From Dunaliella salina (taxonomy: Eukaryota > Chlorophyta > Chlorophyceae > Chlamydomonadales > Dunaliellaceae): a DNA stretch of 17,451 nt. A program made the translations under genes and the position numbers. The stretch covers positions 35,253 through 52,703 of the forward strand of contig MU069745.1 in the NCBI GenBank assembly GCA_002284615.2, in the 5' to 3' direction. Below the pieces are notes generated by a model. It saw only the letters and a program-made list of their open reading frames with translations, searched no databases and had not been told where the DNA came from. Below are positions 3,185 through 15,836 of this stretch, in pieces (within the stretch, counting starts at the first letter, position 1; each line of letters begins with the position of its first letter).

Positions 3185-3510
3185 CAGGAAAGAAAGAAAA
3201 AGAAAAGTCTACGCAAGCCAAAGGCTGCGTGCATTAAGGGAAGAACCCCTAACAAAACTTAGAGGCCTCACCAGAGGACGCTCTTCCTAAACTAGACAGA
3301 ACTAGCCTAGGAAAGAGCGAGAGACAAAACTAATGGGGATCCGGAGGATTGTTTGCCATGCCCCTGAGCGCTCGGATTCTCCTTCTTCCATCCTCAGCCG
3401 CCTCCACGCGCCCAGCAAACCCCCTCCCAGTTGCCCCCTGAAAGCAAAGTGCATTTCTAGTGTTAATGATGGTGGATAATCTTTGGATGGCATGGTCCCT
3501 GAGCTTGGAT
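3185..3510 (-). mobile_element. LINE-B 3' end, inverted, longer fragment
   Basis: On the minus strand the sequence reads through a G-rich block, a GATCCCCATTAG (Asp-Pro-His-stop) block, CCTCTGGTGAGG, TTCCCTTAATGCACGC, a hairpin at 3211-3230 (ACGCA and GCC pairing with GGC and TGCGT, one bulge), and a T/C-rich tail. All lie in the order of the LINE-B 3' end. The upstream limit near 3510 is approximate. Confidence 0.7.
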
Positions 3511-3553
3511 GCTAGTAATTTGGCTTTCTGTTTGGTTAGACCCAGATTTATGA

Positions 3554-4222
3554 GAGGCCATTACATTTTTAGATGATCTAAAGAACACGCCTGCCAAACA
3601 AACTAAAACATTTCAGACACTCTGCAATGAACCGGCCTCTGATACAGTTGAAACGCTGGCAGAAGGCATCTCTAGCCTCATTCACTCCTCGTACCAAGTA
3701 GCATTGAAAGTGTACAACACAAAAACTATCTCCTCAGACCACAACCACTACAACCCAAGGACTACAAGCAATAAACGGCACAACCTGAAAAAGAAGCTTT
3801 CCTTGATCAGGAACGTCCAGTCTCAGCTGACCTCCCTTGCCATCAACACAACTGGCTGCGCCTCAACTATTTTGAAGCAAAATAGGGGAAATGCGAATCT
3901 CAGTAAAGCCATCTCCAAACTTAAGAGCCTTCAACTGGACATCCCCCCTCTTTCACAACTACAGCTCTCTGAGAGCGCTAAACAAGCCATACCTTACATA
4001 GAGGAAACACGCAATAAAAACAACTTCAGCATTGCTCGTAAGGAGATGCAAAAAACAATCAACACAAACCCCAAACAAGCACACAAGGAAATCTTCAAAG
4101 ACAAAAATTTGCAACCAAGAACAGATCTCCAAGCACTCCGAGATCCAGAAACAGGTAATATTGAGACTGAACCAACCAAGCAGGCACAGATTGTTGAAAT
4201 CTATTACACACACAGGCTATGA
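3554..4222 (+). pseudogene. LINE-A1 linker upstream of RT
   Basis: The frame is open from just after the TGA at 3551 to a TGA at 4220-4222, about 222 residues; no convincing initiator is needed because this is internal to a longer ancestral ORF. The peptide is Lys-, Gln- and Leu-rich and partly helical in character, with the stretch NLKKKLSLIRNVQSQL and later KEIFKDKNLQPRTDL. That is the usual style of the connector between a LINE nuclease and its RT. No catalytic residues are seen. A single-base frame change near 4205-4222 separates it from the RT frame. Confidence 0.65.
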
Positions 4223-6350
4223 GGGCAGTAAATATCAAACATGGCAAGTATCTCCCAGGCGAAGCCCCACGAAATTGTCCCTGGGAGCAGGCTTATCACT
4301 CTGCCCCTGTGCCAGACGCATTTGCTCTACAATCAAGGATCACACAAGACAAATCGGACGGGAAGGATCAAAGAGACTGGCTCCACTCCAAAATCATGGA
4401 CAAAAGTGCCTTTAGTGGATGCATCAAAACCCTCAGTAACAACAAATCTCCAGGACCAGATGGAATAGTGAAGGAGATCCTTAGAATGCTCTCCCCCGAA
4501 ATCCAAGAAAGCATTCATAAGCTCTTCATCATCATGTGGGCTACACGCCTCACCCTGGTGTCTTGGAAAATCAGTGAGACTATCCTCATTGACAAAAACA
4601 AAGGAGAGGAGACAGATATATCCTCCTACAGGCCCATTGGTCTAGCCAACAAGCTTTACAAGCTCTGGACGCGCATGGTCACTAATACTCTCTATGAATA
4701 CGCAGAAGCACACTCCCTCCTGAGTTCCACACAAGCTGGTTTCCGGAATCAAAAATTTTTGCACCATCCACCAACTCCAAAACGTTATCATGGGACTTGA
4801 AGATGCAAAAATTTTCGGAAAAGATTTCTATGCCCTTATTGTAGATTTTACCTCAGCCTTTAACACTACTGACCATGACAGGATGCTCTGGATAATGTAC
4901 AGTTCGGGCTTCCCCACTGTTGCCGTAGACACCGTCAAAAATCTATATGAAAATACCACTACTCAAGTAAGACTGCCTTCAGGGGTTAGCACTAAGCAAA
5001 TTCACGTTGACAGAGGAACAATTCAAGGTGATACACTCTCACCCTTTCTCTTTCTCCTCTACATGGAGCCCCTCCTGCGTTGGCTGCATGTTGGAGGGCG
5101 CGGCTATAAACATGGTTGTGTCCCAGGCCAAACCACTACCGACAACCACCTTGCGAATAACCTTAGCAGCGCTGCTTTTGCTGATGATCTCCTCTGTCCA
5201 ACTAGCACAATGCAAGATCTGCAAGCACAAGCCAGAAAGCTCACCCTCTACTCTGACTGGGCTGCACTCATTATTTCCAGCAGCAAGACTAAGGCTACCG
5301 GTATTCTACACAGTTATTCCAGAAAAGATCACAATGGGGTGACTCCTTCACAAGCACTCCATCAAAAACTGCAAGGAAAAATAGAAATCCAAGGACAGAA
5401 GGCCCAGTTCCTCGCTTCAAGTGAGCCCTTCCTCTATCTTGGAGTTCAAATAACAATGGACCTTAACTGGAAGCACCAGATTCAGCGAATGACTTATAAC
5501 CTCAAAAATAAGGTTGATAATCTCGAAGCATCCTATGCATCATGGATATCCCCACGCCAAGTGCTAAACATAGTCTGCACAGCCATAATCCCTAGCCTTG
5601 CTTACTCTTTTGCAGTAACTCCCTGCACCTCTGTTGACCTTATCATCTGGGACACCATGGTAGACAGAATGGTCAAACACAAAAACAAACTTTGGAAAAC
5701 CACAGCTGCAGCAATCATCCGCGAAGATCCTGTTAATTTTGGACTTGGACGCACTTCAATCTGTGTAGAATACCATAGACGCCAGGCTTTTGCTCTCTCT
5801 TCCAGCCTTGAGGACCCCTCAGTAAGACACCGCACAGTTAGCCTCAACCTCCTAACTAAGCAGATAGAAAACCTAAATACTTTATCTAAAACCTACCTCA
5901 CCAAACAAAAAGGTACAACTCTGCACATTAAACGTCAGCTCAACTATAACATGCGCGCTCGCCAGCTCACTGGCATCCATTCCAGCAAGCTCCATCTCAT
6001 GAGAAATGGCACTAGTGTGTTCAAGGATGAGCTAGAGCACATTTGTGAAGGCCTTACCTTGCACAAGCCACCTCCACACAATCTCCCTACTCTCATCACC
6101 TGCATTATGCAACCTCTGCTGAGTATGGGAATCAGTAAGCTACATGAGCTTGCATCTCGTCGCAAAACTCACGTCATCTCAGTTTCTCAACTTCAGGCTA
6201 AACCCCCCAAGGTGAACTACAAATGTAAAATTGTGCTTAACAGGCTGGCAGCTCTTGTCAACCTTGCTCCACAAGAAGAACTGAACACATCCTTAATCCA
6301 AAAGATCATTGCCTACAAAAATACTGAAGCAAATACTCCCAGTTTTTTGT
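4219..6350 (+). pseudogene. LINE-A1 reverse transcriptase (two frames)
   Basis: The first part (4219 to about 4755) has NNKSPGPDGIVKEIL, then SYRPIGLANKLYKLW and AGFRN, typical of the N-terminal LINE RT blocks. A frame change lies in the A5T5 run near 4751-4760. The second part, from about 4760, carries motif A VDFTSAFNTTDHDRM (catalytic Asp at 4844), motif B RGTIQGDTLSPFLFLLYMEP and motif C FADD (5177-5188). These are followed by a KTKATGIL-like block, a FLYLGV motif and a long thumb. Both Asp pairs are intact. The second segment stays open for more than 500 codons, which argues that this copy is not very old and that TAA, TAG and TGA are all true stops in this organism. The protein would synthesise cDNA by target-primed reverse transcription in the nucleus. 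Confidence 0.92.
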
Positions 6351-7829
6351 CGTATCAACGACACCCATGTAAGCGGCCTTACCAACACAAACACGGGTGG
6401 GGAACAGCCCCCCCACACCCAGGTTTGTCAACCAACAAGCCCCCAACCCAACTTCAACCCCCTCACTCAAGCAGTGCCGCCGCCACAGCCTCGCTCCACA
6501 CCTTACTACAGACATAACCACACCGGACGCCGCCTCAGACGTACAGCCAATCATCCTACACCCATCAGTTGTCCTGAAACACAACCAGTTGCAGATGCCA
6601 TGGAAATGCAATCACTCGAGGAGCCTCTCAGCAAAAGATCTCGCTCCAATGCTACACTCAACATTACACCCACACAAATACTCCATCACTCTACAGGCAG
6701 ACTCACTACAAGTTTGAATACCCAGGCTCCGGCCATACAAAATACTACTGTTGAAGGGCCACCCAGCAAACGCACGCGTTCAGCTTTGAGAAATACCCCT
6801 TCTTTCATGTCCCAATTCAGCCAGGCTACCCCAAATAATAGCAGCTCACATGGTTGCCTAAGCACTGCTCACCATACCCCTACACGGTCCAAAACCCCAA
6901 GCACTAAACACCAACATCCGACAGATAATTGTCTCAACCCTCGGAAACAAACTCATATTCCACACAGCCTAGATACTCAAACAAACGGACCCAGAAAGAA
7001 GAGGCAACAATTGCTCCACACAGACAGACAGATCGTTTCCCCAGCCATCCACTCTCTACGCTCGCCTTCCCAAGGCCCAAAAGTCTGGAAATATAGGAGA
7101 GAGACAGCCAAGAAACTTGCTAAAGAGGCTACTGCTAGCCATGCTATCAGTTCTACCTTCTATCATGATTTAGATATTACCCACATAGATGATTGGAGAA
7201 TTTCTGCAGAGAACAAGAAAGAACAATCAAGCTTCCCTGCCCACCTCCAAATGCAATACCACACCCATTACGCACCCATGATTATTGAAAAATGGGCCCT
7301 GCCACTGTTCAAACAAGCTAACCTTGTACATGAAAATATCTCACCTGCTGCTCGCACTGATATTGAGTGTGCCTGCTGCCAAATATGTAATTACCATCAT
7401 AGTTATGAAACAGAAACCTTCGATCCTCCATTTCCTGATATGTGTATTTGTGATGTGTGCCACCGGATGTACCATTGGGAATGCATGAAGGAACTTGGAT
7501 GCTACTCGGATGAGCAAAGACAAGAAATTGCAACGGTTAACACATGGGCATGCCCCGTCTGTGCAAGCCTAAATGATGCCCAAAAAACTGATAGAGAGCA
7601 ACAGACTAAGCAAGAACTCTGGAGGGTCACTTGGAAACCCTCTTGGGAATCAGAGGATTTACAGGAGACGTGGCCTAAATTCAAAGAGTGTTTGCTTAAG
7701 TTTGAAGCACAACAAAGCGAGCCTAACCTTTCAACACCCACGGCAGATTCTACCCTCTCGAATCTTGAAAGACAAGGCTTTGAAAAACCTAATGAAACCA
7801 ATTTGTGGCAGCAAAAATTGGACACATAA
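6309..7829 (+). pseudogene. LINE-A1 proline-rich basic region and PHD finger
   Basis: After a frame change near the T6 run at 6343-6348, a 500-residue frame runs to a TAA at 7827-7829. The first half is rich in Pro, Gln, Thr and Ser. It has three basic patches (PLSKRSRS near 6625, PPSKRTRS near 6760, PRKKRQQ near 6992) that look like nuclear-localisation or nucleic-acid-binding signals. The second half contains a zinc-binding C4HC3 arrangement at about 7377-7562: CQIC, then CDVC, YHWEC, and finally WACPVC. This spacing fits a PHD finger; PHD fingers commonly bind histone H3 tails. The same region is present in copy A2. The TAA is followed by the same frame continuing into the next domain. Confidence 0.8.
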
Positions 7830-8790
7830 TTGCGCAACAAAATCACATTTGATACTGACCCCACTAATCCACAAGCAGACATAAAACCTACAAGCTCATG
7901 CGAATATTGGCTGCGTGAGGTTGACCTCATAACTTACACGGATGAGCAACCCCCTTATCCAGTGTCACCTGACACAGGATCCCACAGCCGTTCTCCCCCT
8001 ACTCCAACACCCCTCATTCTCCCAGAAATCTACTAGGCACACGTGGCTTGCATATATAATACGCGAGGCAAATGTGTTGGTATGATATCCCCTAACCGCT
8101 TCCAAATCCTCTACAGGGCTTTTTATGGAGCCAAGCTTGCTGGCATGCACGAGAAAATGACACCACCTCCTGGCAGCTTTGCCACTGAGCTGCAAGGACT
8201 TCTTACCCGCAAATCCATGCTTGAAAGAAAGTCTAGCAAGAAGATCAAAGACTCTTTTTCAAGAGCCCTTTTAAATCACATTCATACTGCCTTTCAAAAT
8301 TTGGCTTTGCTAACCTAAGAAAAAATGGCCTCCCCACTAGACCACAGCCCACATTTCCAGAATTATTGGAGTGCGGACTCCAGAGATACTCTTTTTGGTG
8401 CCATACATAATGCCTTCTCATCCAAATTTTCAGGCTTCTCAGTCTGCCATCCCATTTATGACGAGGGAATCATGACCCAAGCTTTGCAACATGCCATTTA
8501 CTCTACCATTCTCAACACAGAAGCCACTGCTACATTCATGTTCCTTCCGGCTTGGAATAAGAACATGATAGCCAACCCCTACTCCAAACTTGTCACTGCC
8601 TAAACACACCTCTGTGACAACCTTGGAACCATACCTCGCAAAACACTTGTTTACAGTGCCCCTCAATCATGCCCTAATCAAGAGATATTTCTACCTCAGC
8701 ATACCTGGGACCTTTGTATCTTTGCTGTTTGGAACACTGCAGCTCGAGTTCATCTCAACAATCATAACAAAGACTGGCTACAGGGCCTGA
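7830..8790 (+). pseudogene. LINE-A1 PCIF1-like methyltransferase-related domain
   Basis: The frame of the PHD segment continues, broken by TAG (8034), TAA (8316) and TAA (8601). Blocks in order are NRFQILYRAFYGAK, KMASPLDH, YWSADSRDTLFGAI, SGFSVCHPIYDE, ATATFMFLPAWN and AVWNTAARVHLNNHNKDW. Their order and spacing resemble the C-terminal catalytic region of PCIF1 (CAPAM), which methylates cap-adjacent adenosine in mRNA. The PCIF1 counterparts are an ASPL block, an xFGS block, the NPPF active-site motif, a hydrophobic strand ending in PEW, and an AVHNTA block. At the NPPF position this copy reads CHPI, so adenine N6 methyl transfer is doubtful. The assignment rests on my reading of motifs, not on a profile search. 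If right, the domain could act on the element's RNA or DNA, or serve as a non-catalytic binder. Confidence 0.6.
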
Positions 8791-9665
8791 AAGGAGATTT
8801 GAAAGAAGCCACACAGTGGAAGCTGACGAATGTTAACAGCCACCCTGTCCTGAATCCCATGCATGCTCACATGCAAGGCTTCAATAAACTGGAACGCCTC
8901 CCTTTTGACAAACAACACGTCTCTAAACACCCTAGAAATTTACATTTGAGTACCCAAGATACAGACTTGGTGCCCAGCCAATCCAGAACTCCCCTAACTC
9001 TCAAAGTTGCTGATTGGAGGACATGGGCATACACAAATGGCAGCTGCCTCGTCCGTAACAGAAAGCAAGAAACTGGAGCAGGCGTCTACTGCCCGTCCAC
9101 TGACAGCAGGAACTTTGTAGGTCCAAACGGTGCCGGGATTACTAAAACCATCACTAGAGCTGAATTAGCAGCAATTGCTGCTGCTATCATTACCAAATAT
9201 GCAGATATTGCATCAGACAGCCTCACCTCTTTCAATCAAATACATAAACAGCTTCTCTATCCTGAAAGACATCTGAGGCATATCCAAGGAGACGTCCTTA
9301 AAATGATTTCAACGCTCATTAGAGACTTTCATACCAAAATTCGAATTTACAAAGTGAAGTCCCATGCTGGCATCGCTGGAAATGAATGTGCAGATGCCGT
9401 TGCGAAGCATCAGGCAAAGCAAGCCCAGAACTGTGTGGCAGACACCGAGATACCTGGTGCAGGTCTTGGTGGAAATCCATTTACAAATATTTTCTGGATA
9501 GCCAAGGAAGAAAGAGTGCATGCTGCAGGCACATCTACGGGTCCCCCACCCGCCCCCAAGCTCACCTATCTCCCAAATCTTCAAGATGCTCTCAAATCCC
9601 ACATACATTCTAAACACAAACTTGGATATGCCAATGCCAGAACTGGTTACTACTCTTACTATTGA
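8791..9665 (+). pseudogene. LINE-A1 RNase H domain with altered first Asp
   Basis: The frame continues to a TGA at 9663-9665. RNase H blocks are WAYTNGSCLV (first acidic position), GAGVYC, ITRAELAAIAAAI (catalytic Glu), IASDSLTSF (second Asp) and KSHAGIAGNECADAVAK (final Asp). At codon 9036-9038 the expected Asp of TDGS is AAT (Asn); copy A2 has GAT there (11871-11873). The domain would degrade the RNA strand of the RNA-DNA hybrid after first-strand synthesis. With Asn at this site the copy is probably inactive. Confidence 0.9.
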
Positions 9666-10060
9666 AACTTATTACCGCAAGTAGATAAAAAAATCAGCAA
9701 TGCCTTCAAAAATATGCCCAACACCTCTGTACCCATGAAGCGTACCATCCTGCAGTACCGCACGGGCACCCTCTACGACCAAAAACATGCAGTACGTTCC
9801 AAAAAGTCAACTGATCCATCTTGCCCCCTCTCAGGCTGCCATCATTTGGACAGCGCGCTACACATGCTCTCAGGCTGCCAAATTCATATCATCTCCAACA
9901 TGAGAATTGAACGCCATAACATTGCAGGCAGAATGAGTACAAAAGCCCTCAGCAAATGCCCTGTAGGGGCAGGCATGGTCTACACAGACATTGGAAGCGA
10001 TTTTAAGCTTGCTCAACACAACCTCCAACTCCCTACACTGCCTCAAACAGAACTTTACCT
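9666..10060 (+). pseudogene. LINE-A1 CCHC zinc knuckle preceding the RLE
   Basis: The same frame as RNase H continues past the TGA. It contains CPLSGCHHLDSALHMLSGC (9822-9890), then RIERHNIAGRM. A Cys-x4-Cys ... His ... Cys knuckle followed by an Arg-His-Asn/Asp block just before the nuclease is the signature seen in R2-type RLE LINEs. The frame runs on without meaning to 10130, but the nuclease lies one frame back, so a frame change must fall between 10007 and 10130. Confidence 0.8.
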
Positions 10061-10702
10061 GCTTACTTCTTCCCTCGTGACCTTCCAGAGAGGAAAAGAC
10101 TCAACTCCAGTCGGCCAGATGCTGTTTTGATCACCCCTTTTAATGCCAAACATACCTCTAACGATGTTTCTTCTATCCAAACACAACATCTTTTGCGCAG
10201 GTCCACGTGGAGGACCACCAGAATTAGGCGTGGACGGCAACCCCATGAACTGTATGCAAATGAACGCCATGTGCACTTGATAGAAATTAAGTTCTGCAAA
10301 GACACAAGGCCTGAGCATCAGTTGAAAGCTGCAAAGCAGCAGCATGCAGACCTGTGTAAACTTATTAACGCTAAAGCTGTTACAATTCACCCTATTCTCA
10401 TGGGTGTTGGTGGTAGTATTTATACTGAGTACACCCTCAAGCAATTCAAACAACTAGGACTTGATCATCAGCGCGCCACTAAGCTTGCTCGACAACTTCA
10501 TGCCCATTCTGTTCAACGTGCCCACAAACTAGTAACCATCCGCCGCGCTATTGAAAACAAGGATACTCCCTACACCCAGGGTCTAGAGCCAGGTGCTTCC
10601 AGTAACCTTCCAGATCCCCATGAACTTTTCTTTTTTCTTACTTTGTGGTGGAGGGGACTCACGGCACTTTTGGAGCCAATGTGTCTCCTCTTCCTTAATT
10701 GA
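10007..10702 (+). pseudogene. LINE-A1 restriction-like endonuclease (PD-(D/E)XK) domain
   Basis: The frame opens after a TAA at 10004-10006 and reads YFFPRDLPERKRLNSSRPDA, then VHLIEIKFCKDTRPEHQL. Arg-Pro-Asp followed by Glu-Ile-Lys is the RPD...E-x-K core of the restriction-like endonuclease that nicks target DNA in R2-type LINEs. A helical C terminus (KQFKQLGLDHQRATKLARQL) follows. The frame ends at 10702. However, in A2 and in LINE-B the protein ends in Asp-Pro-His-stop; here that stop is lost (DPHELFFF), so the last roughly 25 residues are readthrough into the 3' UTR. The domain is out of frame with the CCHC knuckle. Confidence 0.85.
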
Positions 10703-10740
10703 TGTAGGGAGAGTTTCTCTGCCTACGTAGTTTTTTTTTC
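10688..10740 (+). other. LINE-A1 3' terminal hairpin and T-rich tail
   Basis: TCTTCCTTAATTGATG is followed by a hairpin at 10704-10726. GTAGG and AGAG on the left arm pair with CTCT and CCTAC on the right, with a G-G mismatch and a TTT loop. A run of nine T and a pyrimidine-rich tail follow. LINE RTs with stringent 3' recognition often bind such a terminal stem-loop. The same layout occurs at the LINE-B ends. Confidence 0.65.
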
Positions 10741-10783
10741 ATTTTCTTTTTCTTTTTCCCCTAGCACAAACCACCAACAGCAG

Positions 10784-11576
10784 ACAGATGACTGTCTCGA
10801 CCCTCAGTCACAAACTCATACTCCGCTCAGCCTAGATACCCAAACAATCAGACCCAGAAAGAAGAGGCAACAATTGCTCCACACAGACAGAGAGATCGTT
10901 TCCCCAGCTATCCACTCTCTAAGCTCGCTTTCTCGAGGTCCAAAATTCTGGAACTATAGAAAAAGCACAGCTGAGAAACTTGCTAAAGAGACTACTGCTA
11001 GCCATGCTATCAGCTCTATCTTCTATCATGATTTGGATGTTACTTACATAGATGATTGCAGAATTTTCGAGGAGAACAAGAAAGAACAATCAAGCATCCC
11101 CGCCCACCTCCAAATGCAATACCACACCCATTACGCACCCATGATCATTGAAAAATGGGCCCTGCCACTATTCAAACAAGCTAACCTTGAACCTGAAGAT
11201 GTCTTACCTGCTGCTTGCACTGATATTGAGTGTGCCTGCTACCAAATATGCAATTACCACCATAGTTATGAAACTTAAAACCTTAGATCCTCCACTTCCT
11301 GATACGTATGTTTGTGATGTGTGCCACCAGACGTACCATTGGGGATGCATGAAGGAGCTTGGATGCTACTCAAGTGAGGAAAGACAAGAAATTGCACCAG
11401 CTGACACATGGGCATGCCCCGTCTGTGCAAGCCTAAATGATACCCAAAAAAATGAAAGAGAGTGGCAGACAAAACAAGAGCTCAGGAGGGTCACATGGAA
11501 GCCCTCCTGGGAATCAGAAGATCTACATGAGACATGGCCCAAATTTATAGAGTGTTTGCTTAAGTTTGCAGCACAA
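10784..11576 (+). pseudogene. LINE-A2 basic region and PHD finger
   Basis: The basic patch RPRKKRQQ and the region before the finger match A1 7000-7370. An extra base near 11272-11280 shifts the frame inside the finger, so the first zinc ligands and the second half (CDVCHQTYHWGC, WACPVC) are in different frames. In the first part YQIC replaces the CQIC of A1: the codon before Gln-Ile-Cys is TAC. The PHD blocks are otherwise conserved. The copy is non-functional. Confidence 0.8.
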
Positions 11577-11580
11577 CCTA

Positions 11581-12255
11581 GTTCATCTCAACAACCATAA
11601 CAAAGACTGGCTACAAGGCCTGAAAGGAGATTTGAAAGAAGCCACACAGTGGAAGCTGACGAATGTGTCAACAGCCACTCTGTCCTAAATTCCACGCATG
11701 CTCACATGCCAGGCTTCAACAAACTGGAACGCCTCCCATTGGACAAACAACACGCCTCCAAACACCCTAAGAATCCACACATGATCTTCAAAGAAACAGA
11801 CTTAGTGCCCAGCCAATATAATGCTACTCTTATCCTCAAAGTTGATGATTGGAGAACATGGGCATACACAGATGGCAGCTGCCTCGTCCGTAACAGAAAG
11901 CAAGGAATTGGAGCAGGCGTCTACTGCCCGTCCACTGACAGCAAGAACTTTGTAGAACCAAACGGTGCTGGGATTACTAAAACCATCACTAGAGCTGAAT
12001 TAGCAGCAATTGCTGCTGCTATCNTTACCAAATATGCAGATATTGCATCAGACAGCCTCACCTCTTTCAATCAAATACATAAACAGCTTCTCTATCCTGA
12101 AAGACATCTGAGGCATATCCAAGGAGATGTCCTTTAAATGATCTAAACTCTTATTAGAGACTTTCATACCAATTCGAATTTACAAGCTGAAGTCCCATGC
12201 TGGCATCGCTGGAAATGAATGTGCAGGCGCTATTGCAAAGCAAGCCCAGAACTGC
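11581..12255 (+). pseudogene. LINE-A2 end of PCIF1-like domain and RNase H
   Basis: Right after the deletion join come VHLNNHNKDW codons, the last block of the PCIF1-like domain, which shows that A2 once had that domain. RNase H follows with an intact WAYTDGSCLV (Asp codon 11871-11873) and ITRAELAAIAAAI. One base at 12024 is ambiguous (N) inside that block. TAA at 12135-12137 and indels near 12170 and 12225 break the frame, and part of the final NECAD block reads as Gly instead of Asp. Confidence 0.85.
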
Positions 12256-12992
12256 GTGGCAGACACCGAGATCCCTGGTGCAGGTCCTGGTGGAAATCCA
12301 TTTACAAATATTTTCTGGATAGCCAAGGAAGAAAGAGTGCATGCTGCAGGCACACCTGCGGCTCCACCACCCGCCCATAGACTCACCTATTTCCCCAACC
12401 TTCAAGATGCCCTCAAATCCCACATGCATTCTAAACACAAGCTTGGATATGCCAATGCCAAACTAGGCTACTACTCTTACTATAAAAAAAACTTATTACC
12501 GCAAGTAGATAAAAAAATCAGCAATGCCTTCAGAAATATGCCCAACATTTCTGTACCCATGAAGCGTACCTCCTGCAGTACCGCACGGGCACCCTCTACA
12601 ACCAAAAACATGCAGTACGTTCCAAAAAGTCAACTGATCCATCTTGCCCCCTCTCAGGCTGCCATCATTTGGACAGCGCGCTACACATGCTCTCAGGCTG
12701 CCAAATTCATATCATCTCCAACATGAGAACTGAACGCCATAACATTGCAGGCAGAATGAGTACAAAAGCCCTCAGCAAATGCCCTGTAGGGGCAGGCATG
12801 GTCTGTACAGACATAGGAAGCAATTTTAAGCTTGCTCAACACAACCTCCAACTCCCTACACTGCCTCCAAGAGAACTTTACCTGCTTACTTCTTCCCTCG
12901 TAACCTTCCAGAGAGGAAACGGCTCAACTCCAGTCGGCCAGATGCTGTTTTGATCCCCCCTTTTAATGCCAAACAAACTTATAACCATGTTT
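12256..12992 (+). pseudogene. LINE-A2 CCHC knuckle and first half of RLE
   Basis: The sequence is about 96% identical to A1 over 9700-10080. It keeps the CCHC codons and the RHNIAGRM block, but a one-base deletion near 12572 splits the frames. As in A1, the knuckle and the RPDA motif (about 12939-12950) lie in different frames, one base apart, with the same TAA upstream in the RLE frame. The RLE is interrupted at 12992 by the LINE-B insertion. Confidence 0.85.
12979..12992 (+). repeat. Target-site duplication, left copy
   Basis: TTATAACCATGTTT immediately precedes the LINE-B insertion. The same 14 bp recur at 13726-13739 at its right end. A1 has a single corresponding site (CTAACGATGTTT) and no insert. 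Confidence 0.9.
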
Positions 12993-12993
12993 C

Positions 12994-13602
12994 TCCCTGG
13001 AAATGGAAATTCCAAAAACTGTACACCGACATATTCCACATTGGCTGTTTCCATCCAGACAACCACCACACACACAGCTCAGTCGCCCTGATGGCATAAT
13101 AGGTGTACCCCTTGAAGGCAGAGACTCCACACACCACCCACAGGATATGCATCCCAGAGACAGAGATATCAACCTCATTGAGCTCAAATTCTGTTCTGAC
13201 ACCAAACCCGAACAAACTCTTCACACTGCGCAAAATCAGCACAAACACACCATTGAAAGCTTACGCACAAGATCTCTCTGGGGCACAAACCGCAATAACA
13301 GAGTCACACTACATGCCATACTAATTGGAGTTGCAGGAACTATCTTCAATCCCTACACTATTGATCCCCTCTGCAAACTTGGCCTAACGAAAGACAAAGC
13401 TCACAAAGCTGCCAAAGAACTCCACTTTCACGCCGTAAAATCCCTAACAAAAATTCACAACACCAAAAATGCCATCCAACTCAGTAACATAAGCAAAGGG
13501 GGGTGGGGGGGGGGGGGGGGGGGGGCTACAGGGAGGGCTGCGGACAGGACAGCGAGGCGCGCAGCCGGACGGATGGCCGATGACCCACCGGACCCTCATT
13601 AG
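12994..13602 (+). CDS. LINE-B restriction-like endonuclease C-terminal fragment
   Basis: The frame is open from the insertion edge to a TAG at 13600-13602, about 202 codons, with no initiator of its own because the element is 5'-truncated. The RLE core is clear: QLSRPDGI, then DINLIELKFCSDTKPEQTL, that is, RPD followed by Glu-Leu-Lys. The LINE-A nuclease has IEIKFCKDTRPEHQL at the same place, so the two families are related. A helical stretch (CKLGLTKDKAHKAAKEL) follows, then a Gly-rich and Arg-rich end (G6 and RAADRTARRAAGRMADD) encoded by the G-run, and finally PPDPH-stop. The fragment lacks RT and probably is not translated. Confidence 0.8.
   Translation, partial: SLEMEIPKTVHRHIPHWLFPSRQPPHTQLSRPDGIIGVPLEGRDSTHHPQDMHPRDRDINLIELKFCSDTKPEQTLHTAQNQHKHTIESLRTRSLWGTNRNNRVTLHAILIGVAGTIFNPYTIDPLCKLGLTKDKAHKAAKELHFHAVKSLTKIHNTKNAIQLSNISKGGWGGGGGGATGRAADRTARRAAGRMADDPPDPH
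13498..13525 (+). repeat. G-run in the C-terminal coding end of LINE-B
   Basis: Six G, a T, then 21 uninterrupted G lie just before the LINE-B stop codon. The tract could form a G-quadruplex in the element's RNA or DNA. Related G-rich blocks sit at the same place in other LINE-B copies (about 14427-14442, and on the minus strand near 3410-3430). The exact length may be uncertain because long homopolymers are hard to sequence. Confidence 0.9.
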
Positions 13603-13669
13603 CTGGGCTGCTCATAGCTAGCCTTCTCTGGTGGGGCTTACTGTTAGTGCCAGTGCTAACTGTTGAGTC

Positions 13670-13725
13670 TTTCCTTAATGCACGCTGGCAAATGCCAGCG
13701 TGGACTTTTACTTTTATTTATACTT
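13670..13725 (+). other. LINE-B 3' terminal hairpin and T-rich tail
   Basis: TTTCCTTAATG leads into a perfect 10-bp stem, CACGCTGGCA with TGCCAGCGTG (13681-13702), with an AA between the arms. GACTTTTACTTTTATTTATAC follows up to the target-site duplication in a T-rich tail. The motif order equals that of the LINE-A 3' end. Confidence 0.8.
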
Positions 13726-13739
13726 TTATAACCATGTTT
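13726..13739 (+). repeat. Target-site duplication, right copy
   Basis: A perfect repeat of 12979-12992. LINE-A sequence resumes immediately after it. Confidence 0.9.
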
Positions 13740-14204
13740 TTCCTACCCATTCCCATCACACTTTGCGCAGCTCCTCACGGAGGACCACCAGAACTAGCCA
13801 CATGAGGCAACCCCATGAACTTCATGCAATTAGACGCCATGTGCACCTAATAGAAATCAAGTTCTGTGAAGACACAAGGCCATAGCATCAGTTGAACGCA
13901 GCAAAGCAGCAGCATGCAGACCTTTGTAAACTTATCAACGCTAAAGCTGTTACAAATCACCCTATTCTCCTGGGTGTAGGTGGAACTATTTAGTCTGAGC
14001 ATACCCTGAAGCAATTCAAACAACTTGGATTGGATCACCAGCGTGCCACAAAGCTTGCTCAACAACTTCATGCCCATTCTGTCCAATATGCCCACAAACT
14101 AGCCACCACACGCCGCGCTATTGAAAACAAAAATACTTCCCACAACCAGTTTCTAGAGCCAGGTCACCTGAGGTGCTTCTAGTAACCCTCTAGATCCACA
14201 TTAG
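13740..14204 (+). pseudogene. LINE-A2 second half of RLE
   Basis: It matches A1 10165-10630 with the block HVHLIEIKFCEDTRP, but a TAG follows at once (near 13883) and other stops occur (near 13991). The far end reads GAT CCA CAT TAG (to 14204), giving the Asp-Pro-His-stop C terminus that A1 has lost. The copy is non-functional both from its own stops and from the LINE-B insertion upstream. Confidence 0.8.
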
Positions 14205-14334
14205 CATTCTCTTTTTCATACCTTGTGGTGGAGGGGGCACACGGCTCTTTTTTGGGCCAATGTGTCTCCTTTTCCTTAATTGATGTAGGGAGAGTTTCTG
14301 TGCCTTTGTAGTCTTTCTTCTTCTCTTTCTACCC
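14205..14334 (+). other. LINE-A2 3' UTR and degenerate terminal hairpin
   Basis: CTTGTGGTGGAGGGG, CCAATGTGTCTCC and TTCCTTAATTGATGTAGGG match A1 10645-10710. The right arm of the hairpin is mutated (CTGTGCCTTTGTAG). A pyrimidine-rich tail ends near 14334, where LINE-B sequence begins. Confidence 0.75.
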
Positions 14335-15049: not shown

Positions 15050-15461
15050 GTTAAAGCGAATTGCCTGACAACTGGCCAAGAAAAGGGCACGCAAATGCTC
15101 AGCAGCAGTCTGAGGAGTGTAGTGCATGCTTAGATACCTGAAGGACTTGGCACGAAGCATCTCCGCCGAGCATACAAATGCAACCTATTCAACATTTGTT
15201 AAAGCTGGACAGAATGAACATCAGTGAGACGCAGGTCAAGTGCAACAACATATGGGTGACTTGCAGCTCACCTGCGTGCATTGCAACAGCCTCTTGCATA
15301 TGTCTGCCAAAAATTCCAAGTAGGAATGCAAAGGGAAACAGCAAAGGAGAAACCAGACAACCTTGCTTGGCTCCAAGCTGAGGGCCCACATGAGCTTGCT
15401 CGCAGCCATTCACTACGATATATTCGCCATTATCATATATGCTTTTGTCAAAAGTTTTCAT
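15050..15461 (-). pseudogene. Reverse transcriptase relic of a third LINE type
   Basis: On the minus strand, an open frame from 15461 reads NGEYIVVNGCEQAHVGPQLG and then AKQGCLVSPLLFPFAFL. The second block matches RT motif B (usually G-x-x-QGC-x-LSP-x-LF). ELQVTHMLLHLTCVSLMF then occupies the place of the YADD block, whose Asp residues are gone. Further on, after a stop and in another frame (about 15060-15170), AKSFRYLSMHYTPQTAAEHL resembles the F-x-YLG block that follows YADD in LINE RTs. It is clearly different from the LINE-A RT (FADD type). The RT is dead: catalytic residues are missing and the reading frame is broken. Confidence 0.65.
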
Positions 15462-15562
15462 GCTTTTGTCAAGTTTTCATGCTTTTGTCCAAAGTTTTCA
15501 TGCTTTTGTCAAGTTTTCATGCTTTTGTCCAAAGTTTTCATGCTTTTGTCAAAAGTTTTAAT
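15441..15562. repeat. Minisatellite of six 19- and 21-bp units
   Basis: Six adjacent units of the form GCTTTTGTC(CA)AAGTTTTCAT, of lengths 21, 19, 21, 19, 21 and 21 bp, fill 15441-15562. The 19/21 alternation gives a 40-bp higher-order period. The first unit overlaps the start of the RT relic, whose minus-strand codons there read MKTFDKS. Confidence 0.95.
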
Positions 15563-15836
15563 GGCAGGCAGGCAAGTAGGCATTCAAATGCGCGGAAGAT
15601 GGGTCCATGATGCTTCTCTTGTTATCATATCATACACCTGCTCAAAAATCAAGACATGTTGCATGTACTCATGGAGATGCATGGGCATTTGACCTGAGCA
15701 GCATGTTGCCGCAAAATGAACGTAGGATGCAAAGTATTACAGGCTGGATAGAACCCGAAAGGAGTGTCTATATATGTTACCCGCTTCACCGCCCGACCAA
15801 ACAACCCTGCATGTTTTGAAAAATTTGAACATTGAG
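15563..15836. other. No gene seen
   Basis: Short open frames exist on both strands but none has recognisable motifs. No repeat or structural RNA is evident. Confidence 0.5.

Follow-up and report, generated by a model that had tools for sequence, protein, structure and literature searches.

What does a retrotransposon do with a methyltransferase-related domain and a chromatin-reader finger within its replicase? The question is raised by a window of 17,451 nucleotides from Dunaliella salina (contig MU069745.1, positions 35,253 to 52,703, forward strand), the whole stretch of DNA analysed here. In it a first-pass annotation had recognised a long interspersed element (LINE) encoding, in one coding unit, reverse transcriptase (RT), a PHD finger, a domain similar to PCIF1, RNase H, a CCHC zinc knuckle and a restriction-like endonuclease (RLE). 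The reading considered likely is that this element, designated copy 1, is a 5'-truncated, dead LINE of the Dualen/RandI type, in whose replicase the PCIF1-like domain would bind RNA or RNA/DNA and the PHD finger would hold on to histone tails.

All the modules named in the annotation were recovered by profile matches and motifs on the plus strand, and their order and approximate positions hold (Table 1). In Pfam searches RVT_1 scored 55.8 bits (cut-off 29.6) on the open reading frame (ORF) 4724-6514, while the first part of the RT, located in another frame (4198-4797), reached 18.1 bits, below the cut-off. The PCIF1-like domain reached 32.2 bits (cut-off 31.1) when 7830-8801 was read through its stops, and RNase H (PF00075) scored 49.5 bits. 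The finger retains all eight C4HC3 ligands with PHD spacing, a pattern found in none of 2100 shuffled proteins; its Pfam PHD profile is above cut-off in relatives (P0010, P0014, P0049, P0050), not in copy 1. The RLE motif PD...E-x-K is found at positions 10112 and 10280, in a region, shared with the knuckle, where two ORFs gave no Pfam match. Together with the RNase H match, this motif bears out the proposed RLE-bearing, Dualen-like LINE with RNase H.

The coding state of copy 1 is less favourable to the annotation: the colinear unit stands, a single open frame does not. By tblastn, the element is read in frames 2 (to 4219), 1 (4204-4770), 2 (4763-6343), 0 (~6300-10034) and 2 (10031-10621), with changes near 4210, 4760, 6300-6630 and 10031, and stop-to-stop frames place in-frame stops at 7827, 8034, 8316, 8601 and 9663. 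Copy 1 is dead. A reassigned stop code was ruled out, since frame changes accompany the stops and a copy elsewhere in the genome, L009, is open across 7827.

A search of the same genome (284,922,659 bases, 1403 contigs) produced at least 79 matches to the RT query (73 scored of 3599 candidates). Colinearity with the window, at 87-89% identity, extends in three of the copies (L003, L006, L009) from 3553-3601 as far as ~8000. L009 is read in one frame from the RT into the PCIF1-like domain, with a single TAA at 2842 in the C-terminal part of the RT, and its last 622 codons, covering the RT C-terminal part, the PHD finger and the beginning of the PCIF1-like domain, are open. Eight further stretches were fetched, one of which (L020) consists of N at 5957 of 6001 positions; in the remaining seven the PCIF1-like region is 87-89% identical to that of the window, and six of them continue to the RLE in blocks of 85-89%, L021 leaving the element at 9495. 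In L017 and L018 this continuation contains an insert of ~100-200 bases. At five places (C230, C332, C55, C222, C1) the interval from RT to RLE is covered jointly by two neighbouring stretches. An ORF ending before the PHD finger is not borne out by L009, nor by the relatives described below, in 11 of which the PHD pattern is present; these are single copies, not a consensus.

Ratios of nonsynonymous to synonymous substitution rates (dN/dS) were pooled, according to Nei-Gojobori, over the window and 11 places of the same genome, which cover the domains unevenly and may hold more than one copy each; only DNA matches with at least 80% identity and more than 200 bases were kept. The resulting values are 0.23 for RT (4763-6262), 0.52 for the linker, 0.31 for the PHD finger (7281-7700), 0.39 for the PCIF1-like domain, 0.26 for RNase H (9015-9440), 0.40 for the CCHC knuckle and 0.38 for the RLE, as compared to 0.68 to 1.60 for the same stretches in shifted frames. 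This difference indicates that in the source lines the PHD finger and the PCIF1-like domain were maintained at the protein level, as the other modules were, so that both can be regarded as genuine, selected parts of the element, placed between RT and RNase H as in the annotation.

From three protein searches 59 proteins were obtained, all of them predicted and a few possibly spliced gene models (P0035 comes from EukProt). RT and the PCIF1-like domain occur together in 34, always with the RT first; RNase H lies downstream of the RT in 31 of these and an apurinic-type endonuclease (APE) upstream of it in 24, the complete order APE-RT-PCIF1-RNase H-CCHC/RLE being found in 22. In P0049 the RT, PHD, PCIF1 and RNase H profiles all exceed their Pfam cut-offs. 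The Pfam PCIF1 profile (PF12237) is above cut-off in P0003, P0006, P0010, P0020, P0021, P0026, P0031, P0035, P0036, P0043, P0044, P0046, P0048 and P0050, and below it in P0001, P0011, P0012 and P0018; it is unlisted in P0014, P0015, P0017, P0022 and P0057, all of which but P0057 are matched by a hidden Markov model (HMM) built on the family itself. Fourteen of the 59 proteins lack a match to this HMM, among them P0056 and P0057, which contain APE, RT and RNase H. The HMM was built in rounds, with a final list of 32 proteins plus the window, and its matches among P0001-P0042 are circular; 13 of the 17 proteins first returned by a later search match it. Members also supplied the sequences for the RT, RNase H, APE and C-terminal HMMs. 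A CCHC-type pattern is present in 28 of 30 relatives checked, the C-terminal HMM matches 30 of the 34, and, with regard to the RLE, a fold search revealed an R2-like fold in P0001.

The fate of the PCIF1-like domain was evaluated from its fold and its motifs. The structural match covers residues 417-668 of human PCIF1 only, corresponding to the methyltransferase fold. Searched by sequence against the PDB on its own, the PCIF1 piece of the window gave no matches, and Pfam scans of pieces of the window listed no WW domain at E <= 1. In an alignment to zebrafish PCIF1, the position of the catalytic NPPF is occupied by HPIY. The same HPIY is found in L017, L021 and L022 (L016 and L019 are frame-broken there, L018 and L023 absent from the listing of the motif scan). 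NPPF occurs in none of 44 element domains: 11 have NPEY, one NAEY and one NPPG, while the Asn is missing in 31. The gapped P0004 and P0009 were left out of this count, the partly gapped P0016 and P0052 and the near-copies P0019/P0021 and P0034/P0037 being included. PCIF1 activity is reported to fall when NPPF is disrupted (PMC6318281), and APPA and SPPG are the usual mutants made for activity tests, mutation inactivating the enzyme (PMC10544176). The domain falls short of a PCIF1 in the NPPF motif and the WW domain; the methyltransferase fold is kept, and catalysis has probably been lost in the lineage of the window. Active cap methylation was rejected as the principal explanation on the absence of NPPF from all 44 domains, and the suggestion in the annotation that the element modifies its own 5' adenosine is not sustained, given HPIY and a structural match limited to the methyltransferase fold.

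The distribution of the Asn was followed on an RT tree of the collected proteins and the window, from which 11 of the 45 PCIF1-matching proteins, having no RT, were left out; the tree is unrooted, its bootstrap is not settled and long branches meet. Rows with N at the motif form one supported clade of six and recur at several further points of the tree, N and other residues having been exchanged at least 6 times; the window belongs to a supported set of 17 rows, with P0054 as its neighbour. Since the same unusual NPEY sits on separate branches, we infer that NPEY may be older and was lost repeatedly, which the unrooted tree does not show. A tentative extension, doubtful rather than probable, would be that early Dualen-type LINEs captured a PCIF1-type adenine methyltransferase with an ancestral NPEY, still present on several branches, marking their own RNA or nascent DNA and coupled to a slot for chromatin readers (PHD in some, a weak chromodomain-like match in others), and that lines of the window type later turned it into a binding-only pseudoenzyme. 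That the domain is today an active adenine methyltransferase, marking the RNA or the complementary DNA of the element, appears unlikely: the kept fold, the selection on the domain and the NPEY (11/44) and NAEY (1/44) variants, close to NPPF and on several separate branches, favour activity, while HPIY in the window lineage and the effects of NPPF disruption and of the SPPG and APPA mutants (PMC6318281, PMC10544176) argue against it. In addition, the cap site of PCIF1 lies between its helical and methyltransferase domains (PMC9916840), and the helical domain is unseen in the fold match, which begins only at residue 417 of the human protein.

The finger was less readily classified by profiles. 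In copy 1 Pfam PHD is unlisted and zf-RING_15 appears with E 0.046, below cut-off; in copy 2, a second copy described below, zf-RING_15 (3.2e-5) and PHD (0.064) are both below cut-off. A PHD chain is absent among the fold-search matches listed, where other domains fill the list, which is no argument against a PHD finger. Weak Chromo matches are found in the RT-to-PCIF1 interval of P0026 and P0050 (20.9 and 16.1 bits; cut-off 25.1), and a slot occupied by varying chromatin readers would fit a function in targeting.

Both domains could instead act mainly against the host, for example by binding RNA polymerase or chromatin and shielding the element from silencing, rather than in integration. A dead PCIF1 can indeed keep a binding role, as the catalytically dead PCIF1 of Drosophila still binds the Ser5-phosphorylated C-terminal domain (CTD) (PMC9916840). 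This explanation is nevertheless given a low probability, since CTD binding is tied to the WW domain (PMC9916840), of which none was found in the window pieces, and the domain is placed between RT and RNase H, inside the replicase protein.

A role of the two domains within the replicase is preferred, and the intact element would encode one long protein, carrying APE, RT, PHD-type finger, PCIF1-like domain, RNase H, zinc knuckle and RLE, preceded in some relatives by a candidate cysteine protease. By analogy with known families, integration would proceed by target-primed reverse transcription, in which an endonuclease nicks the target, the RT copies the RNA and RNase H removes the template. The PCIF1-like domain, with its fold kept under purifying selection and NPPF lost in the lineage, would most likely bind the RNA or RNA/DNA of the element in the integration complex, and the PHD finger would most likely keep that complex on histone tails.

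Several observations weigh against this reading. His in place of the Asn of NPPF need not abolish activity, and HPIY may support other chemistry. The Pfam PHD cut-off is missed in all three copies of the same genome that were scanned (copy 1, copy 2 and L009), and the PHD pattern is found between RT and the PCIF1-like domain in only 11 of the 34 relatives; on both grounds, a role of the finger would not be general. The dN/dS values pool decayed copies and pairs with shared history. The simple PD...[ED]xK motif is present in only 17 of the 30 C-terminal HMM matches, some of the fits being doubtful, and for this reason the case for an RLE across the wider set is built on the HMM and the P0001 fold. 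Finally, the element is assigned to the Dualen/RandI type by comparison with published descriptions of Dualen, not with its sequences.

The window might also contain a Dualen-related LINE endowed with an RLE only. This is suggested by the failure of 15 query proteins, several of them including an APE, to match an APE in the window by tblastn, and by the start of copy 1 at 3553. The genomic copy L010 makes it very unlikely: its match to the window starts at 3553, and upstream of the RT it contains an APE-like ORF, found by the family HMM at 5.5e-21 and by Pfam at 19.9 bits, under the cut-off of 24.5, in a frame-broken copy. Taken with the APE upstream of the RT in 24 of the 34 relatives, a component missing from the annotation, L010 indicates that copy 1 most likely lost its APE by 5' truncation. 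A chance stacking of modules from separate elements, which the nest of several elements and the many frame breaks in the window might suggest, has a practically negligible probability, the same order being found in single predicted proteins and in several colinear genomic copies, which refute it.

The 5' border of copy 1 is exactly at 3553, where L004, L009 and L010 begin to match, with upstream element or locus sequences beyond; the 3' border, near 10753, was set by comparison with other copies. At their 3' ends the copies have in common a variable tail, rich in pyrimidines and often TTTTC-like. At 12 places where 3' junctions were compared, eight have flanks different by eye, L022 lacks the tail, and in three (copy 1 of the window and two in L016) the element is followed by a further piece of its own family. 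Site-specific insertion was rejected on the basis of the eight differing junctions.

Table 1. Features of the window; all are on the plus strand.
Feature	Position	Strand	Evidence
Copy 1, Dualen/RandI-type LINE, decayed, 5'-truncated	3553..10753 (end approximate)	+	tblastn with relatives; copies in the same genome
Reverse transcriptase, frame broken near 4760; FADD at 5177	4423..5815	+	RVT_1; RT HMM and tree; motif positions; dN/dS
PHD-type C4HC3 zinc finger	7377..7562	+	eight zinc ligands; Pfam PHD in relatives; dN/dS
PCIF1-like methyltransferase-fold domain; in-frame stops 8034, 8316, 8601	7893..8804	+
CHPIY, in the position of the PCIF1 catalytic NPPF	8445..8459	+	alignment to zebrafish PCIF1
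RNase H domain; YTNGS at 9030	9027..9416	+	PF00075, 49.5 bits; dN/dS
CCHC zinc knuckle	9822..9878	+	motif in window; CCHC-type pattern in relatives
Restriction-like endonuclease (RPD ... EIKFCKDTR)	10112..10309	+	PD...E-x-K motif
3' tail rich in pyrimidines, resembling (TTTTC)n in other copies	10734..10753	+	3' ends compared
Copy 2, 5'-truncated, interrupted by a later insertion	10757..14330	+
3'-terminal piece of another Dualen-like family, lodged within copy 2, 733 bp, 5'-truncated	12993..13725	+

The second copy adjoins the 3' end of copy 1, to which it is 81 to 98% identical by block; ~1.03 kb is missing from it, the PCIF1-like domain included. In the first RNase H motif (9030-9044) copy 1 has YTNGS and copy 2 YTDGS. 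The 733-bp insert is flanked by exact 14-bp target-site duplications, TTATAACCATGTTT, at 12979-12992 and 13726-13739, as predicted for a LINE-type insertion. A fragment similar to the RLE of the inserted family (blocks of 74 and 88%), divided by a long (CA)n array, is located at 2344-2820, and a minisatellite with 19- and 21-base units at 15418-15579. A minus-strand repeat adjoining the 5' end of copy 1 (3193-3557) is weakly similar (E 2e-4) to the C-terminus of these elements, with matches also in L008 and L013.

Protease-like N-terminal matches were detected above cut-off in P0017 (Josephin) and P0048 (Peptidase_C48, Ulp1/C48) and below it in P0031 (OTU) and P0044 (Josephin), their kind varying among the four; upstream of the longest copy read in the Dunaliella genome, a copy possibly truncated itself, there was no recognisable cysteine protease. 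Outside this genome, a search of viral contigs gave 54 stretches, of which none was confirmed, while the genome-contig search returned one contig, L001 (PUPH01000029.1), labelled as a metagenome-assembled genome of a Thermoplasmata archaeon and encoding such an element (P0006); for carrying it, the contig is probably a eukaryotic contaminant. Among annotated Dunaliella salina proteins, P0013 (DUNSADRAFT_1943) contains N-terminal remnants of the family of the window, namely the stretch following RNase H and the RLE, matching two element parts at 80% and 68%, besides other Pfam domains.

In the literature searched (titles and abstract beginnings, with few subscription papers) neither PCIF1 with retrotransposons nor Dualen with a PHD finger or a methyltransferase is reported; a 2016 review of adenine methylation by Iyer and colleagues could mention the combination. 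With selection acting on a PCIF1 fold that mostly lacks its catalytic motif, the question arises of its role in a retrotransposon replicase, and of whether it was once an enzyme there. Some PF12237 matches in predicted eukaryotic proteins may be parts of transposons, not cap methyltransferases.

Among known systems, Dualen/RandI elements share with the family of the window an APE upstream of the RT, as seen in relatives and in L010, an RLE downstream, RNase H and a 3' tail of short-repeat type; Kojima and Fujiwara reportedly described a cysteine protease in some Dualen elements in 2005. The coexistence of APE and RLE in a single element (PMC4640811, PMC3636483), RNase H (PMC4640811) and, in green-algal RandI families, short 3' repeats instead of poly(A) (PMC3747384) are described for these elements. 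The descriptions cited do not name the PCIF1-like domain or the PHD finger, which the present family carries, the finger in a subset, between RT and RNase H. With PCIF1/CAPAM, the cap-specific N6,2'-O-dimethyladenosine (m6Am) methyltransferase, the domain has in common the fold and the ASPL and FG motifs; it differs in HPIY for NPPF, in the WW domain, not found, in the unmatched helical domain and in its location inside a retrotransposon replicase. R2 is specific for ribosomal DNA and is not known to carry an APE, an RNase H, a PHD finger or a PCIF1-like domain; in the family of the window, 8 of the 12 3' junctions listed are in different sequences. A PHD finger is also known from CR1-type LINEs, carried by a separate ORF1 protein, while here it is found between RT and RNase H.

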